A DNA stretch of 64,000 bases from Gemmatimonadales bacterium. Lineage in GTDB: Bacteria > Gemmatimonadota > Gemmatimonadetes > Gemmatimonadales > GWC2-71-9. The stretch lies in the NCBI GenBank assembly GCA_036279355.1, contig DASUJH010000020.1, forward strand, positions 62,001 to 126,000. Reading direction: 5' to 3'. The stretch's first letter is position 1, and each line of letters starts with the position of its first letter. The position numbers and the translations under genes are program-made. Of this stretch, positions 13,437 to 20,496 are shown one piece after another. Below the pieces are notes generated by a model. It had not been told where the DNA came from, did not search any database, and was given only the letters and a program-made list of their open reading frames with translations.

Positions 13437-15118
13437 GCCGCCGGCTCGCGCAGCGCGCGGTTCACCGCGTTGCGCACCACGAGGTCCTTGTCGTCCGCGG
13501 CGCGGAGCAGGATGTCGCGGGCCTCGGGGCCGCGCATGCGGCCGAGCGCGATGGCGGCGCAGGCGCGGGTTTCCGCCGGCTCCTTGCGCTTGAGCAGCCC
13601 GCGCGGCAGCAGAAGCCCCGCGAGCGCGGGCAGCGCCGGCGGCCCGGCAATCGCGCCGTAGGCCTCGAAGAACGCCATCTTTTCGGTCAGGTCCATGTCC
13701 TTGACGCCCCGCCCGAGCACGACGGTCTCGACCCGGCGGAGCGCGCCCTTGTAGCCGCGCGCGGCGATGGTCCGGACCGCGGCGAGGCGGACGCCGCGAT
13801 CGGCATCCTCGACGGCGCGATCGATGTGGATGAGCGCGCCCGGGCTCGCGATCTCGGCCAGCGCCTGCACCGCCGCGAGGCGCACCGCGGGGTCGGCGTG
13901 CCCGACCGTCTCGCCGAGGCCCGGCACGGCCTGCTGCACGCGGAGTCGCCCGCAGAGCGCGATCGTGGCGGGGAGCGTTTCGTCGCCGCCCTCGCGCAGC
14001 AGACGCAGCACCTCAGTCGGGTGCTGCGTGGCGAGGCGGTCGATGGCCTGCTCCAGGAGCGCGCGCACCGGCGCCGCGCCGAGCTTCGGCACCGCGCCCA
14101 AGAGCGTGGCGACCGCCTCGGGGCGCAGCTCACGCAGCACCTCGACCACGTCGTCATCGCCTGCCGCGGGCGCCGCCTCGTCGAGCGCCTGGACGAGTTG
14201 CGCCACGATCGCCGGCTGACTCAACTGGGTCTCGAAGTTGTGCAGCCGCTGTCGGTGCTCCGCCGAAAGTTCGGCCGCGCGAGATGCCGCGAGCCGCGTC
14301 TCGCGCATCACCGTCGCGACCGTTCGGAACTCGCCCTTGTTGAGCAGGTTGGGGAACAGCATGTCGAGCACGTCCAGTATTTCAGACCGAGCCGCGGCAT
14401 TGGATTGCAGCTCGAACAGATCGAAGAGGCTGGTGAGCGCCTGCAGCCGGACGTCGCGCGCGTACTCCCGCTCCACCTCGCGGGAGATGTAGTTGATCTC
14501 CGCCTCATCCAGGAAGTAGAGCGTCGAGTCGAAATCGTCGATGTCCACCATGCCCTTGGGGCGCGGGGGCGCCTCTTCCCGCACCTGCTCCCGCCGCACC
14601 TCCGGCGGCGGCGGCTCGGCGGCGCCCGCGCTTTCCATCGACGCCGCGAGCGCATCGCCCTCGCCGAGGAAGTCGATGAACTGCCCGTGGATGTACTGGA
14701 ACTCCTGCTCCCACAGCAGCGTCATCAGGTCGTCGCCGGCGTCGGGCGAGAGAAAGCGCACGCGGTTCATCGTCTCCAGGAAGCGTGGCAATTCCTCCGC
14801 CTCGGCGCCGCGGCGGATGGTGAGCACGCGCATGCCGTCCTTGTACAGGAGCCAGGCGAGGCATTCGGACTTGCTCAACTGCTCGTAGACGACCTCCTCC
14901 TCCCAGCGGAAGTCGGTCTCGCCCACCGCGAGCACCAGCTCATCCACCGCGGCCCACACCGGCTCGAGCGCGGCCTGAACGTTCTGCACCGCGCGCTGAT
15001 GGATTGGATTGTTCGGGAGATACATCTGGAAGGCGCGCAATGCCTTCACCAGCGTCTGCAGGAGCTCCGCGACCTGGCTCGGCACCAGGAGCGCGGGCGA
15101 TGGGACGCCCGCCGTCAC
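13433..15118 (-). CDS. HEAT-repeat protein with the same N-terminal domain as the HD-GYP protein
   Basis: 561 aa, no signal peptide. Residues about 18-120 resemble residues 26-127 of the following HD-GYP protein: LLxxLxxALRxxxxYxxxN, QA, DEL and DF elements line up in order. A charged, Pro-rich linker follows, then helices, and from about residue 330 short Ala/Leu helical repeats of HEAT/PBS-lyase type ([46 protein letters not shown]). These are protein-interaction surfaces. Start GTG 15118 overlaps the trpB stop as GTGA. Function unknown. Translational coupling to the HD-GYP gene and the shared domain suggest the two proteins act together. Confidence 0.75.
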
Positions 15119-16317
15119 CGGGGCCCTCCGAGCAGCGCGGCCGCGTGCGCCACGTCCTTGTCGCCCCGGCCGCTCAGGCAGACGAGCACCGGCTCGTCGG
15201 CGCCCCAGCGGCCCCGCTCGCGCATGACCCACGCGAATGCGTGCGCGGTCTCGAGCGCGGGGATGATGCCCTCGAGCCGCGCCACGAGCTGAAACGCGTC
15301 GAGCGCCTCGCGGTCGCTGGCGGATTCGTAGCGCACGCGGCCGCTGTCGCGCAACCAACTGTGCTCGGGGCCCACGCCGGGGTAGTCGAGTCCCGCGGAC
15401 ACCGAATGCGCCGGCAGCACCTGGCCGTCCGCGTCCTGGAGGAGATAGCTCAGGCTGCCATGGAGCACGCCCGGGCTCCCGGCACTCAGCGTGGCACTGT
15501 GGTGCCCGCTCGCTATTCCCTCTCCGGCCGCCTCGACGCCGACCAGCTCGACCGCGCGGTCGTCGAGGAACGCCGAAAAGATCCCCATCGCGTTGGAGCC
15601 CCCGCCGACGCAGGCCACGATCGTCCGCGGCAGCCGGTTCGCGCGCTCCAGGAGTTGCGCCCGCGCCTCGCGTCCGATCACCGCCTGAAAGTCGCGTACC
15701 ATGCGCGGGTAGGGATCCGGCCCCACCACGGAGCCGATGATGTAGTGGGTCGTCGGCACGTTCGTGACCCAGTCGCGGAGCGCTTCGTTGGTCGCATCCT
15801 TGAGCGTGCGCGTCCCCGACTCGACGGGCACTACCGTCGCGCCGAGGAGCTGCATCCGGTAGACGTTGAGCCGCTGGCGCGCGACGTCCTCCGCGCCCAT
15901 ATACACCACGCACTCGAGGCCGAAGCGGGCGCACACCGTCGCGGTGGCAACCCCGTGCTGGCCCGCGCCGGTTTCGGCAATGATGCGCCGCTTCCCCATC
16001 CGCCGAGCGAGGAGCGCCTGGCCCACGGTGTTGTTGATCTTGTGCGCGCCGGTGTGATTCAGGTCCTCGCGCTTGAGCCACACCGGCGCACCCACCTCTG
16101 CGCTCAAGCGAGGCGCGGCCGAGAGCGGCGTCGGACGTCCCACGTACTCGCGCAGCAGCCCGTCGAGCTCGTCCCAGAACGCACGGTCCGTCCGCAGGCC
16201 GTCGTAGAGCGCGGCCAGCTCGTCGAGCGCCGCGACCAGCGTCTCGGGGACATACCGCCCTCCGTACGGCCCGAAGCGGCCGCCGACGGCGCGCTCAGGC
16301 GAAGGGGCGAGAGCCAC
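15115..16317 (-). CDS. trpB: tryptophan synthase beta subunit
   Basis: PLP enzyme that condenses indole and serine. 400 aa from GTG 16317, which overlaps the trpF end by 23 bases. Motifs: [13 protein letters not shown], the PLP-lysine segment [29 protein letters not shown], the phosphate loop [20 protein letters not shown], and LSGRGDKDV at the C-terminus. Standard TrpB1, with [11 protein letters not shown] and DYPGVGPEH all in place. Confidence 0.96.
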
Positions 16318-16939
16318 GGGCTGCCTCCACGAAGCGGTCCATCTTAAGCGGGTCCTTGATGCCAGGTTGGATTTCAACCCCGGAACTTACATCCACGATA
16401 TCGGGCGCCACGAGCCCCACCACCTCGCCCACGAGCTCGGCGGTGAGCCCGCCCGCCAGTACCATGCGGCACCCCGCGAGCGCGGCCCGCGCCGCACGGG
16501 CGACCGGCAAGCCGAGCTGTACGCCGCTGCCGCCGTCCGCGTGGGCCACTCGCGGCTCAACGAGCACGGCGTCCGCCTCGGCCGCCAGCCCGTCGAGCGC
16601 GGCGAGGTCGACCCACGCCGCAACCCGCGCCACGCGCCAGACGAGGAGCCCTTCGCGCCGGAGACGTGCCGCGTCCGCGACCGTGTGCACCCCATGGAGC
16701 TGTACTCCGCTCAGCGCCGCGGCATCCCGCAGTCGAAGAATCTCGTCGCCCGAGGCGGCGCCGACGACGCCGAGGACGGGCCGTCCATCCGCCGCCGCGA
16801 CGATCGCGCGCGCCGCAGCCGGCGTTACGACGCGCGGTCCGCTTGCAAAGACGACGCCGAGATAGCTCGCGCCGCTCGCCGCTGCCGCCGCCGCATCCTG
16901 GGGCCGAGTGAGCCCGCAAATCTTCACTTCGACGCTCAT
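16295..16939 (-). CDS. trpF: phosphoribosylanthranilate isomerase
   Basis: Amadori rearrangement of PRA to CdRP. About 214 aa barrel: [12 protein letters not shown] with the catalytic Cys, [18 protein letters not shown], and [12 protein letters not shown] with VDVSSGVE carrying the catalytic Asp and phosphate-binding loop. I use ATG 16939 (MSVEVKICG); ATG 16948 is equally in frame. 46 bases separate it from trpC. Confidence 0.94.
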
Positions 16940-16985
16940 GCCGCTCATCCCGGTGCGGCGAGGGTGCGTATCGGAGCGGATGCGC

Positions 16986-17777
16986 TCACCGCCCACGCCG
17001 TGCGATCGCCGTGCACTCAGCCGCGAGCGCCGCCGGGTCCGCTGCCGCCGAGAGCGCGGTCCCGATGAGCACCGCGTCCGCGCCGGCCGCCGCGGCGCGC
17101 GCGACGTCCGCGGCGGACGCCATGCCGCTCTCCGCCACGGCGACGAGCTCGGCGGGCACCGCCGCGATGAGCGCCCACGCGGCGGCGACATCGATCCGGA
17201 AGGTGTCGAGGTCGCGGCTGTTGATGCCGATGACGGTGGCGCCCGCCGCGAGCGCCCTCTCGAGCTCCGCGCGCGTGTGAACTTCGACCAGCGCGTCGAG
17301 ACCGTGGTCGCCGGCACATCCGATCAGCGCGGCGAGCCGCGCCGCGGGCAGCGCGCGCACGATGAGCAGCACCGCCGCGGCGCCGCGCGCGCGGGCCTCG
17401 AGTACCTGCAACTCGTCGATGATGAAATCCTTCCGGAGCACCGGCACTGCCACTCGGCGCGCGACGGCCGCGAGATCGTCGATCGAGCCGCCGAAGAACG
17501 GCTCATCGGTGAGCACCGAGATGGCCGATGCGCCGGCCGCCGCATAGCGCTCGGCCCGCTCCGGCGGTTTGAGGTCCTGTCGGATCACGCCGGCCGAGGG
17601 CGATCGCCGCTTGACCTCGGCAACGAGCGCTACCCGCGAGCCGCCCCCGAGCGCAGCCCGGAGCGAAGGGGGCGCCGGCGCCCGTCGCGCCGCAGATTCC
17701 AGCTCGCCGCCGCGCGCGTGCAGCCCCGGCAAGCCGCGGCGCGTCGTGGCGAGGATCTCGTCGAGCGTGACCGGCAT
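16986..17777 (-). CDS. trpC: indole-3-glycerol-phosphate synthase
   Basis: Converts CdRP to indole-3-glycerol phosphate. 263 aa, starting MPVTLDEILATTRRGL at ATG 17777 with an AAGGA ribosome site. Signatures: ALVAEVKRRSPSAGVI, ISVLTDEPFFGGSIDDL, VLRKDFIIDELQVLEA, VEVHTRAELERAL, IGINSRDLDTF and AVAESGM. First of the trpC-F-B run; its upstream region is shared with lexA. Confidence 0.95.
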   Translation of the reverse strand: MPVTLDEILATTRRGLPGLHARGGELESAARRAPAPPSLRAALGGGSRVALVAEVKRRSPSAGVIRQDLKPPERAERYAAAGASAISVLTDEPFFGGSIDDLAAVARRVAVPVLRKDFIIDELQVLEARARGAAAVLLIVRALPAARLAALIGCAGDHGLDALVEVHTRAELERALAAGATVIGINSRDLDTFRIDVAAAWALIAAVPAELVAVAESGMASAADVARAAAAGADAVLIGTALSAAADPAALAAECTAIARRGR

Positions 17778-17778
17778 C

Positions 17779-17823
17779 TTGTCCTTCGGCTGGTGTTCGG
17801 GTACTCTTATTCGGGACCTATTC
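17779..17823 (+). promoter_or_regulatory. lexA promoter with two direct-repeat candidate LexA boxes
   Basis: TTGTCC (17779-17784), a 17-base spacer and TACTCT (17802-17807) form a sigma-70-like promoter; expected start near 17814. Two direct repeats with an 11-base period overlap it: CTTC-N7-GTTC (17784-17798) in the spacer and ATTC-N7-ATTC (17809-17823) just after the -10. GTTC-N7-GTTC is the known LexA box of Alphaproteobacteria. The placement would let LexA repress its own promoter. Confidence 0.55.
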
Positions 17824-17851
17824 GGCCGCACCAGCACCCGGAGGCGCCGGC

Positions 17852-18460
17852 ATGCCGCTCACCAAGCGTCAGAGCGAAATCCTCACGTACCTGCAAAGCC
17901 ACATTCGCGCCGAGGGCTTCGCGCCGAGCTTCGAGGAAATCGCCGAGCAGTTCGGCTTTCAATCGCTCGCCACCGTTCATGAACACCTCACCAACCTCGA
18001 GCGGAAGGGCTACATCCGCCGCGCTTACAACGAGAGCCGAGCCATCGAGCTGCTCCCGCCCCGCGGCACCACCGTCGCCACCGAGATTCCGCTGCTCGGC
18101 AAGGTGGCCGCCGGCACGCCCATCGAGGCGCTGATGCAGCAGGAAACCCTCGCCGTGCCCGACGCCATGCTCCCCCGCCGCGGGCCCAACTTCGCGCTCA
18201 AGGTGGCCGGCAATTCGATGGTCGACGAGCACATCCTCGATGGCGACTTCGTCGTGGTGCACGGTAAGCAGTCCGCCGAAAATGGCGAGCTCGTGATCGC
18301 GCTCGTGAACGGCGCCGAGGCCACGGTTAAGAAGTTCTACCGCGAGGCCGGCGGTTGGATCCGGCTCCAGCCGGCCAATGCCACGATGCAGCCGCTCCGC
18401 TTCCATGAGCGCGACGTGCTGATCCAGGGCGTTGTGGTCGGCGTCATTCGGAAATACTGA
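17852..18460 (+). CDS. lexA: LexA, SOS repressor and self-cleaving protease
   Basis: 202 aa. N-terminal winged helix (LTKRQSEILTYLQSHI, EGFAPSFEEIAEQFGF, VHEHLTNLERKGYIRR), then the autocleavage site Ala87-Gly88 in GKVAAGTPIEA, and the S24 protease domain with Ser122 (GNSMVDEHI) and Lys160 (ATVKKF) as the catalytic dyad. Represses DNA-damage genes until RecA triggers self-cleavage. Preceded by its own promoter. It sits opposite to and inside the trp cluster: its last 17 bases overlap the end of trpD, and its 5' region is shared with trpC. Recognition-helix residues differ from E. coli, in line with a non-CTGT box. Confidence 0.96.
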   Translation: MPLTKRQSEILTYLQSHIRAEGFAPSFEEIAEQFGFQSLATVHEHLTNLERKGYIRRAYNESRAIELLPPRGTTVATEIPLLGKVAAGTPIEALMQQETLAVPDAMLPRRGPNFALKVAGNSMVDEHILDGDFVVVHGKQSAENGELVIALVNGAEATVKKFYREAGGWIRLQPANATMQPLRFHERDVLIQGVVVGVIRKY

Positions 18461-19550
18461 CGTCGGCCTCGGCGCGCACCGCGGGGGCAGCTTCGCGCAG
18501 CCGCTCGAGTGCCGCCGCCCCCCGCCCGTCATCCAGCGCCGCACCCGCACAGCGCACCGCCTCAAGGAACGAGAGCCCCCGCCCCGCCACATAGAGCGCC
18601 GCCGCCGCGTTGAGCTGGACGGCGGCGCGCGCCGGATCAATTCCGCCAGCACGGTGCATGGCGCTCCCTCCGCCGCCTCCGAGCAGGCGCTCGATGCGAA
18701 TCGCATTCTCAGCCGGCACGCCGCCCGCCAAGGGCGTGAGATCATCGCAGGCGAGTCCGAACGCCGCGGGCTCGATCGTCCACTCGGCGACACGCCCGTC
18801 CCGCACCTCCCAGACCAGGGTCACACCGCAGGGACTGATTTCGTCCATGCCCACGAGGCCGTGCACCACGAGCGCATGCGCGGCGCCCAGACTGCGGAGG
18901 GCTTCGGCCACGAGCGGCGCTCGCGCCCGGTCCGACACGCCGACGACCTGACGCCGCACCCCGCCAGGATTTGCCAGTGGTCCGACGAGATTCATGATCG
19001 TGGGAACGCCCAACTCGCCGCGCGTAGGCGCCACGTGCCGCATTGCCGGGTGATAGCTCGGCGCGAACAGAAAGACGAGCCCCACCTCCCGCAGCACCTC
19101 CACCGCGCGCGGCGGAGGCAGCATGATTTCGACGCCGAGAGCTTCCAGTACGTCCGCTGAGCCGGAGCGCGAGGTGTAGCTCCGATTGCCATGCTTTGCC
19201 ACGGGTACCCCGGTGCCGGCCACCACGAAGGCCGCCGCAGTCGACACGTTGATCGTTCCGATGCTGCCGCCGCCGGTACCGCAGGTATCGACCAGCTCGT
19301 CGGCGCGGTCGGTCGCGAACGGCACCATCGCGGTGCGCAGCGCACTGGCAGCGCCGGCAATCTCTTCGGCGCATTCGCCCTTGGCGCGAAGACCCATCAG
19401 CAGCGCGGCAACCTGCACCGGCGTCGCCTCGCCGCGCATCACGACGCCGAACGCCGCCGCCGTCTCGACGGCCGTGAGCGACGCGCCGGCGGCCAACTGC
19501 CGGAGCGCATGGGCCAACGCGGACTTGGCAGGAAATGAGGCCAGGGTCAC
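18444..19550 (-). CDS. trpD: anthranilate phosphoribosyltransferase
   Basis: Adds phosphoribosyl to anthranilate. 368 aa. Signatures: VDTCGTGGGSIGTINVST (PRPP loop), VPVAKHGNRSYTSRSGSADVLEALG, FAPSYHPAMRHVAPTRGELG, NLVGPLANPGG, VVHGLVGMDEIS. Best start is GTG 19550, about 38 bases after the predicted transcription start. No trpE or trpG is present nearby. Its stop overlaps the lexA stop region by 17 bases, so any transcript continuing to trpC would be antisense to all of lexA. Confidence 0.93.
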   Translation of the reverse strand: MTLASFPAKSALAHALRQLAAGASLTAVETAAAFGVVMRGEATPVQVAALLMGLRAKGECAEEIAGAASALRTAMVPFATDRADELVDTCGTGGGSIGTINVSTAAAFVVAGTGVPVAKHGNRSYTSRSGSADVLEALGVEIMLPPPRAVEVLREVGLVFLFAPSYHPAMRHVAPTRGELGVPTIMNLVGPLANPGGVRRQVVGVSDRARAPLVAEALRSLGAAHALVVHGLVGMDEISPCGVTLVWEVRDGRVAEWTIEPAAFGLACDDLTPLAGGVPAENAIRIERLLGGGGGSAMHRAGGIDPARAAVQLNAAAALYVAGRGLSFLEAVRCAGAALDDGRGAAALERLREAAPAVRAEADVSISE

Positions 19551-19594
19551 GACGCGCGCGGGGTCGGGAGGATGAAGGTGGAATCCGACGGAAA

Positions 19595-19624
19595 ATGGTA
19601 CCCAGCACCAGCGCCTTTTGTCAA
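19595..19624 (-). promoter_or_regulatory. trpD promoter
   Basis: Read on the minus strand: a consensus -35 TTGACA (19624-19619), an 18-base spacer and TACCAT (19600-19595). Predicted start near 19588, giving a leader of about 38 nt to the GTG. No leader peptide with Trp codons and no attenuator is visible in that leader. Confidence 0.55.
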
Positions 19625-19633
19625 TTGTGACAA
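19618..19633. promoter_or_regulatory. TTGTCA-ATTG-TGACAA inverted repeat over the trpD -35
   Basis: Perfect 6-bp arms separated by 4 bases. The repeat covers the -35 box of the trpD promoter and lies 14 bases before the truA -35, so a bound dimer could block trpD and influence truA. Regulator unknown. Confidence 0.45.
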
Positions 19634-19646
19634 CGATTTGCGCGCC

Positions 19647-19675
19647 TTGCTCGGGGGCCGCTCGGCGGCTAGATT
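19647..19675 (+). promoter_or_regulatory. truA operon promoter, near-leaderless
   Basis: TTGCTC (19647-19652), 17 bases, TAGATT (19670-19675). The predicted start is about 19682, two bases before the truA ATG at 19684. The predicted mRNA therefore has essentially no leader. Confidence 0.45.
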
Positions 19676-19683
19676 TCGCCCCG

Positions 19684-20496
19684 ATGCTCCAGACCTTCCT
19701 CGCGGTGCTGCACTTCGACGGCGGCCGGTTCGTGGGGTGGCAGCGCCAGCCCTCCGGACGCTCGGTGCAGGCGGAAGTGGAGAAGGCCCTGGAGCAGCTC
19801 GCCGGCCAGCCGGTTGAAGCGCACGCATCCGGCCGCACCGATGCCGGTGTGCATTCGATCGGCCTCGGCGTCAGCACCACCCTTTCCTCTGGCTGGACTC
19901 CCGACGCGCTCCGGCGCGCGCTCAACGCGCTGCTCCCCTCTGATTGCTGGGTCGAATCGGTCGCGCGAATGCAGCCCGGCTTTCACGCCCGGAAGAGTGC
20001 CTCCTTCCGCCGCTACCGTTACGACATCGGAACCGACGACGCCAGCCGCTCGCCGTTTCGGCGCCGGTTCGAGTGGGCCCTCGCGCGGCCGCTCGATCTC
20101 GACCTGCTGCGCGCAGCCACCGAGCCCATCCGGGGCGAGCACCAATTCGAGGCCTTCGCGGCCAAGGGCGTTCCCAAGCGGCATTACCGCTGCCGCATCC
20201 ACCTCGCCGAATGGGAACCCCGCGCCGGAGAGCGCGGCGTCCGGCTCCACATTGAGGCGGACCGCTTCCTCCACCACATGGTGCGCATGCTCGTCGGCAC
20301 GATGGCCGACGTCGGGCGCGGGCGGCGGCCCCCGAACGATATGGCGGCGCTTCTCGAGCGGCACGACAATCTCGATACCAGCCCACCCGCACCTCCGGAG
20401 GGACTCTACTTCGCCGCGGCCACGTATCCGGCCGAGTGGTATGCGGAGCCCCAGGAACTCGGCGCCGAAGCGCGGCGCGTGGTCCGCTCCGCATGA
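19684..20496 (+). CDS. truA: tRNA pseudouridine(38-40) synthase
   Basis: Isomerises uridine in the anticodon arm of many tRNAs. 270 aa: YDG-like start VLHFDGGRFVGWQRQPSGRSVQ, the catalytic Asp in GRTDAGVHS, FHARKSASFRRYRYDI, and the C-terminal HHMVRMLVGTMADVGRGRR. Chosen ATG 19684 gives the usual N-terminus. First of a 12-gene co-directional run; overlaps the protease gene by 4 bases. Confidence 0.95.
   Translation: MLQTFLAVLHFDGGRFVGWQRQPSGRSVQAEVEKALEQLAGQPVEAHASGRTDAGVHSIGLGVSTTLSSGWTPDALRRALNALLPSDCWVESVARMQPGFHARKSASFRRYRYDIGTDDASRSPFRRRFEWALARPLDLDLLRAATEPIRGEHQFEAFAAKGVPKRHYRCRIHLAEWEPRAGERGVRLHIEADRFLHHMVRMLVGTMADVGRGRRPPNDMAALLERHDNLDTSPPAPPEGLYFAAATYPAEWYAEPQELGAEARRVVRSA

Follow-up and report, generated by a model that had tools for sequence, protein, structure and literature searches.

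Predicted direct-repeat SOS boxes at lexA and other genes throughout class Gemmatimonadetes

Introduction

Do the paired TTC repeats at the lexA promoter of a Gemmatimonadales bacterium serve as operators, and does its LexA read a direct repeat rather than a palindrome? A sequence-only reading of the 64,000-nucleotide stretch analysed here (the window) had proposed LexA boxes like those of Alphaproteobacteria, with CTTC-N7-GTTC in the promoter spacer and ATTC-N7-ATTC just after the -10, each with an 11-base period. Direct-repeat LexA motifs are known in Alphaproteobacteria (PMC8565304) and in Balneolaeota, where the motif is TTACACATATTTTWTACATA and repeated independent origin has been discussed (PMC7739468); the direct repeat CTA-N9-CTA is cited in PMC3091678 as reported for Synechocystis LexA. 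The Bacillota LexA box, CGAAC-N4-GTTCG, is inverted (PMC9578287). A literature search by title and abstract, which covered few subscription papers, returned no LexA or SOS study on Gemmatimonadota.

Our comparative analysis makes it very probable that the repeats are direct-repeat LexA operators (SOS boxes) with the consensus TTCGG-NNNN-T-N-TTCGG, present throughout class Gemmatimonadetes. What appears to be new is the SOS box across Gemmatimonadota, the direct-repeat type of operator being already known elsewhere. The prediction provides an SOS box and a partial regulon for a widespread soil phylum, for which the literature searched reports none, and would add a further instance of a symmetric repressor dimer on a direct repeat.

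Results

Two direct repeats at the lexA promoter

All four half-sites lie where the sequence-only reading had placed them (CTTC at 17784-17787, GTTC at 17795-17798, and ATTC at 17809-17812 and 17820-17823), and their 11-base period, in the spacer and after the -10, is confirmed. The region from 17779 to 17851 reads TTGTCC-TTCGGCTGGTGTTCGG-G-TACTCT-TA-TTCGGGACCTATTCGG, followed by GGAGG and ATG, and contains two perfect TTCGG-N6-TTCGG direct repeats (Table 1). Operator 1 exactly fills the 17-bp spacer between the predicted -35 and -10 hexamers, and operator 2 spans the predicted transcription start of lexA. A consensus promoter scan gave no match at lexA, as the GC-rich hexamers are too weak for such a scan, and the promoter was therefore assigned through conservation. 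These are the only two copies of TTCGG-N6-TTCGG in the window, where 0.19 are expected and two are reached in 3 of 100 shuffles. The TTC-N8-TTC core alone is not above chance there (10 found, 12.1 expected), so a single window is insufficient as proof.

Table 1 Coordinates of the lexA promoter region in the window and of boxed DinB-fold proteins in relatives
Feature	Position	Strand	Basis or detail
Predicted -35 hexamer of lexA, TTGTCC	17779..17784	+	TTG 90-99% conserved in 105 aligned promoters
LexA operator 1 (predicted), TTCGG-CTGGTG-TTCGG	17785..17800	+	Half-sites 17785-17789 and 17796-17800
Predicted -10 hexamer of lexA, TACTCT	17802..17807	+	TAnnnT conserved in 105 promoters
LexA operator 2 (predicted), TTCGG-GACCTA-TTCGG	17810..17825	+	Half-sites 17810-17814 and 17821-17825
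Ribosome-binding site of lexA, GGAGG	17840..17844	+	Sequence
lexA	17852..18460	+	TIGR00498, PF01726, PF00717; conserved cleavage site and catalytic pair
trpC, divergent from lexA	16986..17777	-	Translation and tblastn
DinB-fold proteins with boxes	L199:1012-1485, L259:1016-1522, L275:943-1437, L279:1518-1985		

Conservation across the class

An exact TTCGG-N6-TTCGG lies upstream of lexA in all 106 promoters sampled from families f1 to f9 of the class, and 97 of them carry two boxes; a background of about 770 stretches of 200 bp, taken from downstream of lexA, holds no exact copy. All 80 named Gemmatimonadota lexA loci also have one, and the named records among the LexA relatives are nearly all Gemmatimonadota, mostly Gemmatimonadales. 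One exception, in the first search, was a locus (L028, genome G019) with no TTCGG pair near the lexA start. The direct repeat thus stands, while the NTTC half-site first proposed gives way to a conserved TTCGG: box 1 has C or T ahead of TTC and box 2 a mixture of bases, and the GG that follows TTC is invariant in the boxes scored. The sequence-only reading had named a conserved palindrome as a finding that would count against it, and none occurs in these promoters. Inverted TTCGG/CCGAA pairs are found in at most 2 of the 106 at any spacing, against period-11 direct pairs in every one, and a palindromic operator was rejected; the Gram-positive GAAC-N4-GTTC type of inverted repeat does not describe the Gemmatimonadota boxes.

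When 105 promoters are aligned on the first box, a TTG lies six bases upstream of it (90-99%) and a TAnnnT begins 17 bases after its start (95-97% per fixed position), positions that place the first box across the 17-bp spacer. The second box at lexA follows the -10. Most box-to-box distances are 23-28 bp, others cluster at 33-37 bp, and 11 and 30 bp occur once each. As the two groups differ by about one helical turn, the pattern suggests that both boxes share the same helical face, and the start site could be an alternative cause of it. A scan of viral contigs for the promoter-box pattern gave 24 matches, probably largely by chance.

A variant box in the sister class f10

Four of four lexA promoters from the sister class f10 carry two pairs of the form TTCGC-N6-TTCG[CT], and the box usually lies between near-consensus hexamers TTGACT and TATAAT (TATAAT in most). 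In one genome (G062), TTCGC-N6-TTCGC follows the TATAAT of a umuD-like gene, assigned by eye from its sequence, and this is the only gene besides lexA among the promoter-like f10 matches checked; genome-wide, TTCGC-N6-TTCGC is not enriched beyond the control. The f10 recA genes (L287-L290) have no box although lexA is boxed, so that recA may have left the SOS regulon in this lineage, or may never have joined it. The recognition helix of f10 LexA reads STATVHKHL or SPATVHKHL, against SLATVHEHL in the class. Glu to Lys at residue 44 is paired with TTCGG to TTCGC, which, as a single change in a single lineage, is only a hint.

LexA and the proposed mode of repression

The window LexA scores 214.5 bits against the full-length equivalog model TIGR00498 (cut-off 110.95) and has both the DNA-binding domain (PF01726) and the S24 peptidase domain (PF00717). 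Across 18 family members there is no variation at A87 and G88, which form the Ala87-Gly88 cleavage site, or at the Ser122/Lys160 dyad. LexA is single-copy in the source genome; a second, weak PF01726 match was rejected, since both its sequence and the adjacent dnaJ point to HrcA. From the sequence evidence we infer that LexA binds the boxes, with the two winged-helix domains of a dimer lying head to tail on half-sites one helical turn (11 bp) apart. The interdomain linker is four residues longer than that of E. coli LexA, as an alignment gap, a length suggestive of easier head-to-tail placement. At the lexA promoter one dimer would sit between the -35 and the -10 and a second on the start site, where both would block RNA polymerase. 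On DNA damage, RecA filaments would stimulate LexA to cleave itself at Ala87-Gly88, and the regulon would be switched on: lexA, recA and imuA-imuB-dnaE2 and, in relatives, also uvrA, uvrB, dinB and others.

Many genomes of family f2 encode a second, diverged LexA-like protein with 25-38% identity (L358, L359, L360, L361). In L358 and L359 its gene follows gltX, encodes a different recognition helix (IKSTKTVSDIL) and has no TTCGG box just upstream.

Comparison with known LexA systems

As a control, the same extraction recovered GTTC-N7-GTTC or its complement from four of four alphaproteobacterial lexA promoters and CTGT-N8-ACAG from one gammaproteobacterial lexA promoter, the expected boxes, which validates the approach. 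The likeness to Alphaproteobacteria (Caulobacter, Rhizobiaceae; GTTC-N7-GTTC) holds for the direct repeat, the 11-bp period and the TTC-N8-TTC core, as well as for an autoregulated LexA-type repressor and for boxes that occur in both orientations, GTTC and GAAC. It does not extend to the full half-site, since TTCGG lacks a conserved leading G, or to the recognition helix, which in Alphaproteobacteria is SKSGIHRLI and is accompanied by a longer linker. The host phylum, Gemmatimonadota, does bear out the suggestion of a direct-repeat operator outside Proteobacteria. The box of Bacillota and Actinomycetota shares TTCG within its half-site, and the recognition helix is similar (STVHGHL there against ATVHEHL in Gemmatimonadota, within Bacillota SSSTVHGHL and Gemmatimonadota SLATVHEHL), but the repeat is inverted. 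Balneolaeota share the direct repeat, its discovery by comparative genomics and a phylum-level SOS box, with other half-sites and spacing. The Synechocystis motif has another half-site and is not a phylum-wide SOS box.

We judge the chances evenly divided on whether direct-repeat recognition arose in Gemmatimonadota separately from that in Alphaproteobacteria, in a LexA that retained a Gram-positive-type helix and TTCG half-site, in which case half-site specificity and orientation would evolve separately. The paired change at residue 44 and in the half-site, together with operator distances of 23-28 or 33-37 bp, hint at such a gain. Inheritance of the direct-repeat mode from an ancestor in common with alphaproteobacterial LexA seems the less probable history. 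The shared period and core favour it, as does a small tree with Gemmatimonadota and Alphaproteobacteria on one side of a branch, but the support of that branch is 41/0, the alphaproteobacterial helix and linker differ, and the helix in Gemmatimonadota is more like the one in Bacillota, whose LexA reads a palindrome with similar GTTCG half-sites. Because helix and half-site resemble those of this palindrome-reading LexA, a clean test of orientation is possible, and swaps of domains or linkers with Bacillota LexA could reveal what sets it.

Predicted regulon in the source genome and its relatives

The source genome, a metagenome-assembled one, holds 11 exact copies of the box against 3 of a reversed control pattern. 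Boxes were anticipated upstream of other SOS genes, and exact copies do precede recA and the imuA-imuB-dnaE2 operon, besides the two at lexA; uvrA, also named, has none in this genome. Here imuA was assigned by a weak NF033429 match and dnaE2 by PRK05672 above its cut-off. Further boxes precede mutM (Fpg), with the box at L040:1501-1520, 5 bp from the start codon, a radical SAM gene of the Rv2578c family, and unassigned ORFs. Two ORFs (L036:1623-2660 and L037:1550-1855), with no Pfam family, are possible lineage-specific SOS genes. Exact copies at L035 and L041 are intragenic and probably due to chance.

Over 61 genomes, 837 copies were counted against 229 of the reversed control, and 60 of the 61 genomes lie above it. 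The box is exact at 25 of 29 recA promoters and present with at most one mismatch at all 29; in family f8 it lies upstream of recA in reversed orientation, in keeping with a box that may face either way relative to the promoter. In six relatives it precedes uvrB, uvrA, imuB, dnaE2 and dinB, so that the repeat sought at uvrA, imuB and dnaE2 is found there. Also boxed in these relatives are lhr and genes for a UvrD-type helicase, HolB, ribonucleotide reductase, a WYL protein, DinB-fold proteins and radical SAM repair proteins of two kinds.

Boxes of this kind could in principle be bound by another DNA-damage regulator, such as a WYL-domain (PafB/C-like) activator, and in one relative a WYL-domain gene has its own upstream box (L284). 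We consider this very improbable: lexA is the one gene that is almost always boxed, usually twice, the box sits where a repressor blocks polymerase, and a full-length LexA equivalog with intact cleavage residues would otherwise be left without an operator. Least credible of all is that the repeats are core promoter elements or a sigma-factor spacer feature, as the exact fit of the first lexA box to the spacer might suggest, since the box follows the -10 at imuA and umuD, lies upstream and reversed at f8 recA, occurs twice at lexA and is restricted to a small set of genes that includes many with SOS roles.

Additional observations

Four DinB-fold proteins (PF05163/PF12867) in two genomes have exact boxes close upstream (Table 1); Bacillus dinB is a damage-inducible gene of the same fold. 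In G098, boxes precede genes for a CHAT-domain protein (L282:1513-2568) and a WYL-domain regulator (L284:373-1470), possibly a damage-linked effector and a second-tier regulator. A metagenome-assembled genome titled Candidatus Kuenenia stuttgartiensis (L122) carries a Gemmatimonadota-type lexA with an upstream box, and this bin is probably mislabelled or mixed. In the window, lexA (plus strand) lies between trpD and trpC (both minus strand), antisense within a row of trp genes (15115-19925), and both neighbours are on the minus strand at 59 of the 80 named Gemmatimonadota loci. As operator 1 is 7 bp from the trpC start codon, a link between the SOS response and both trpC expression and antisense transcription is possible.
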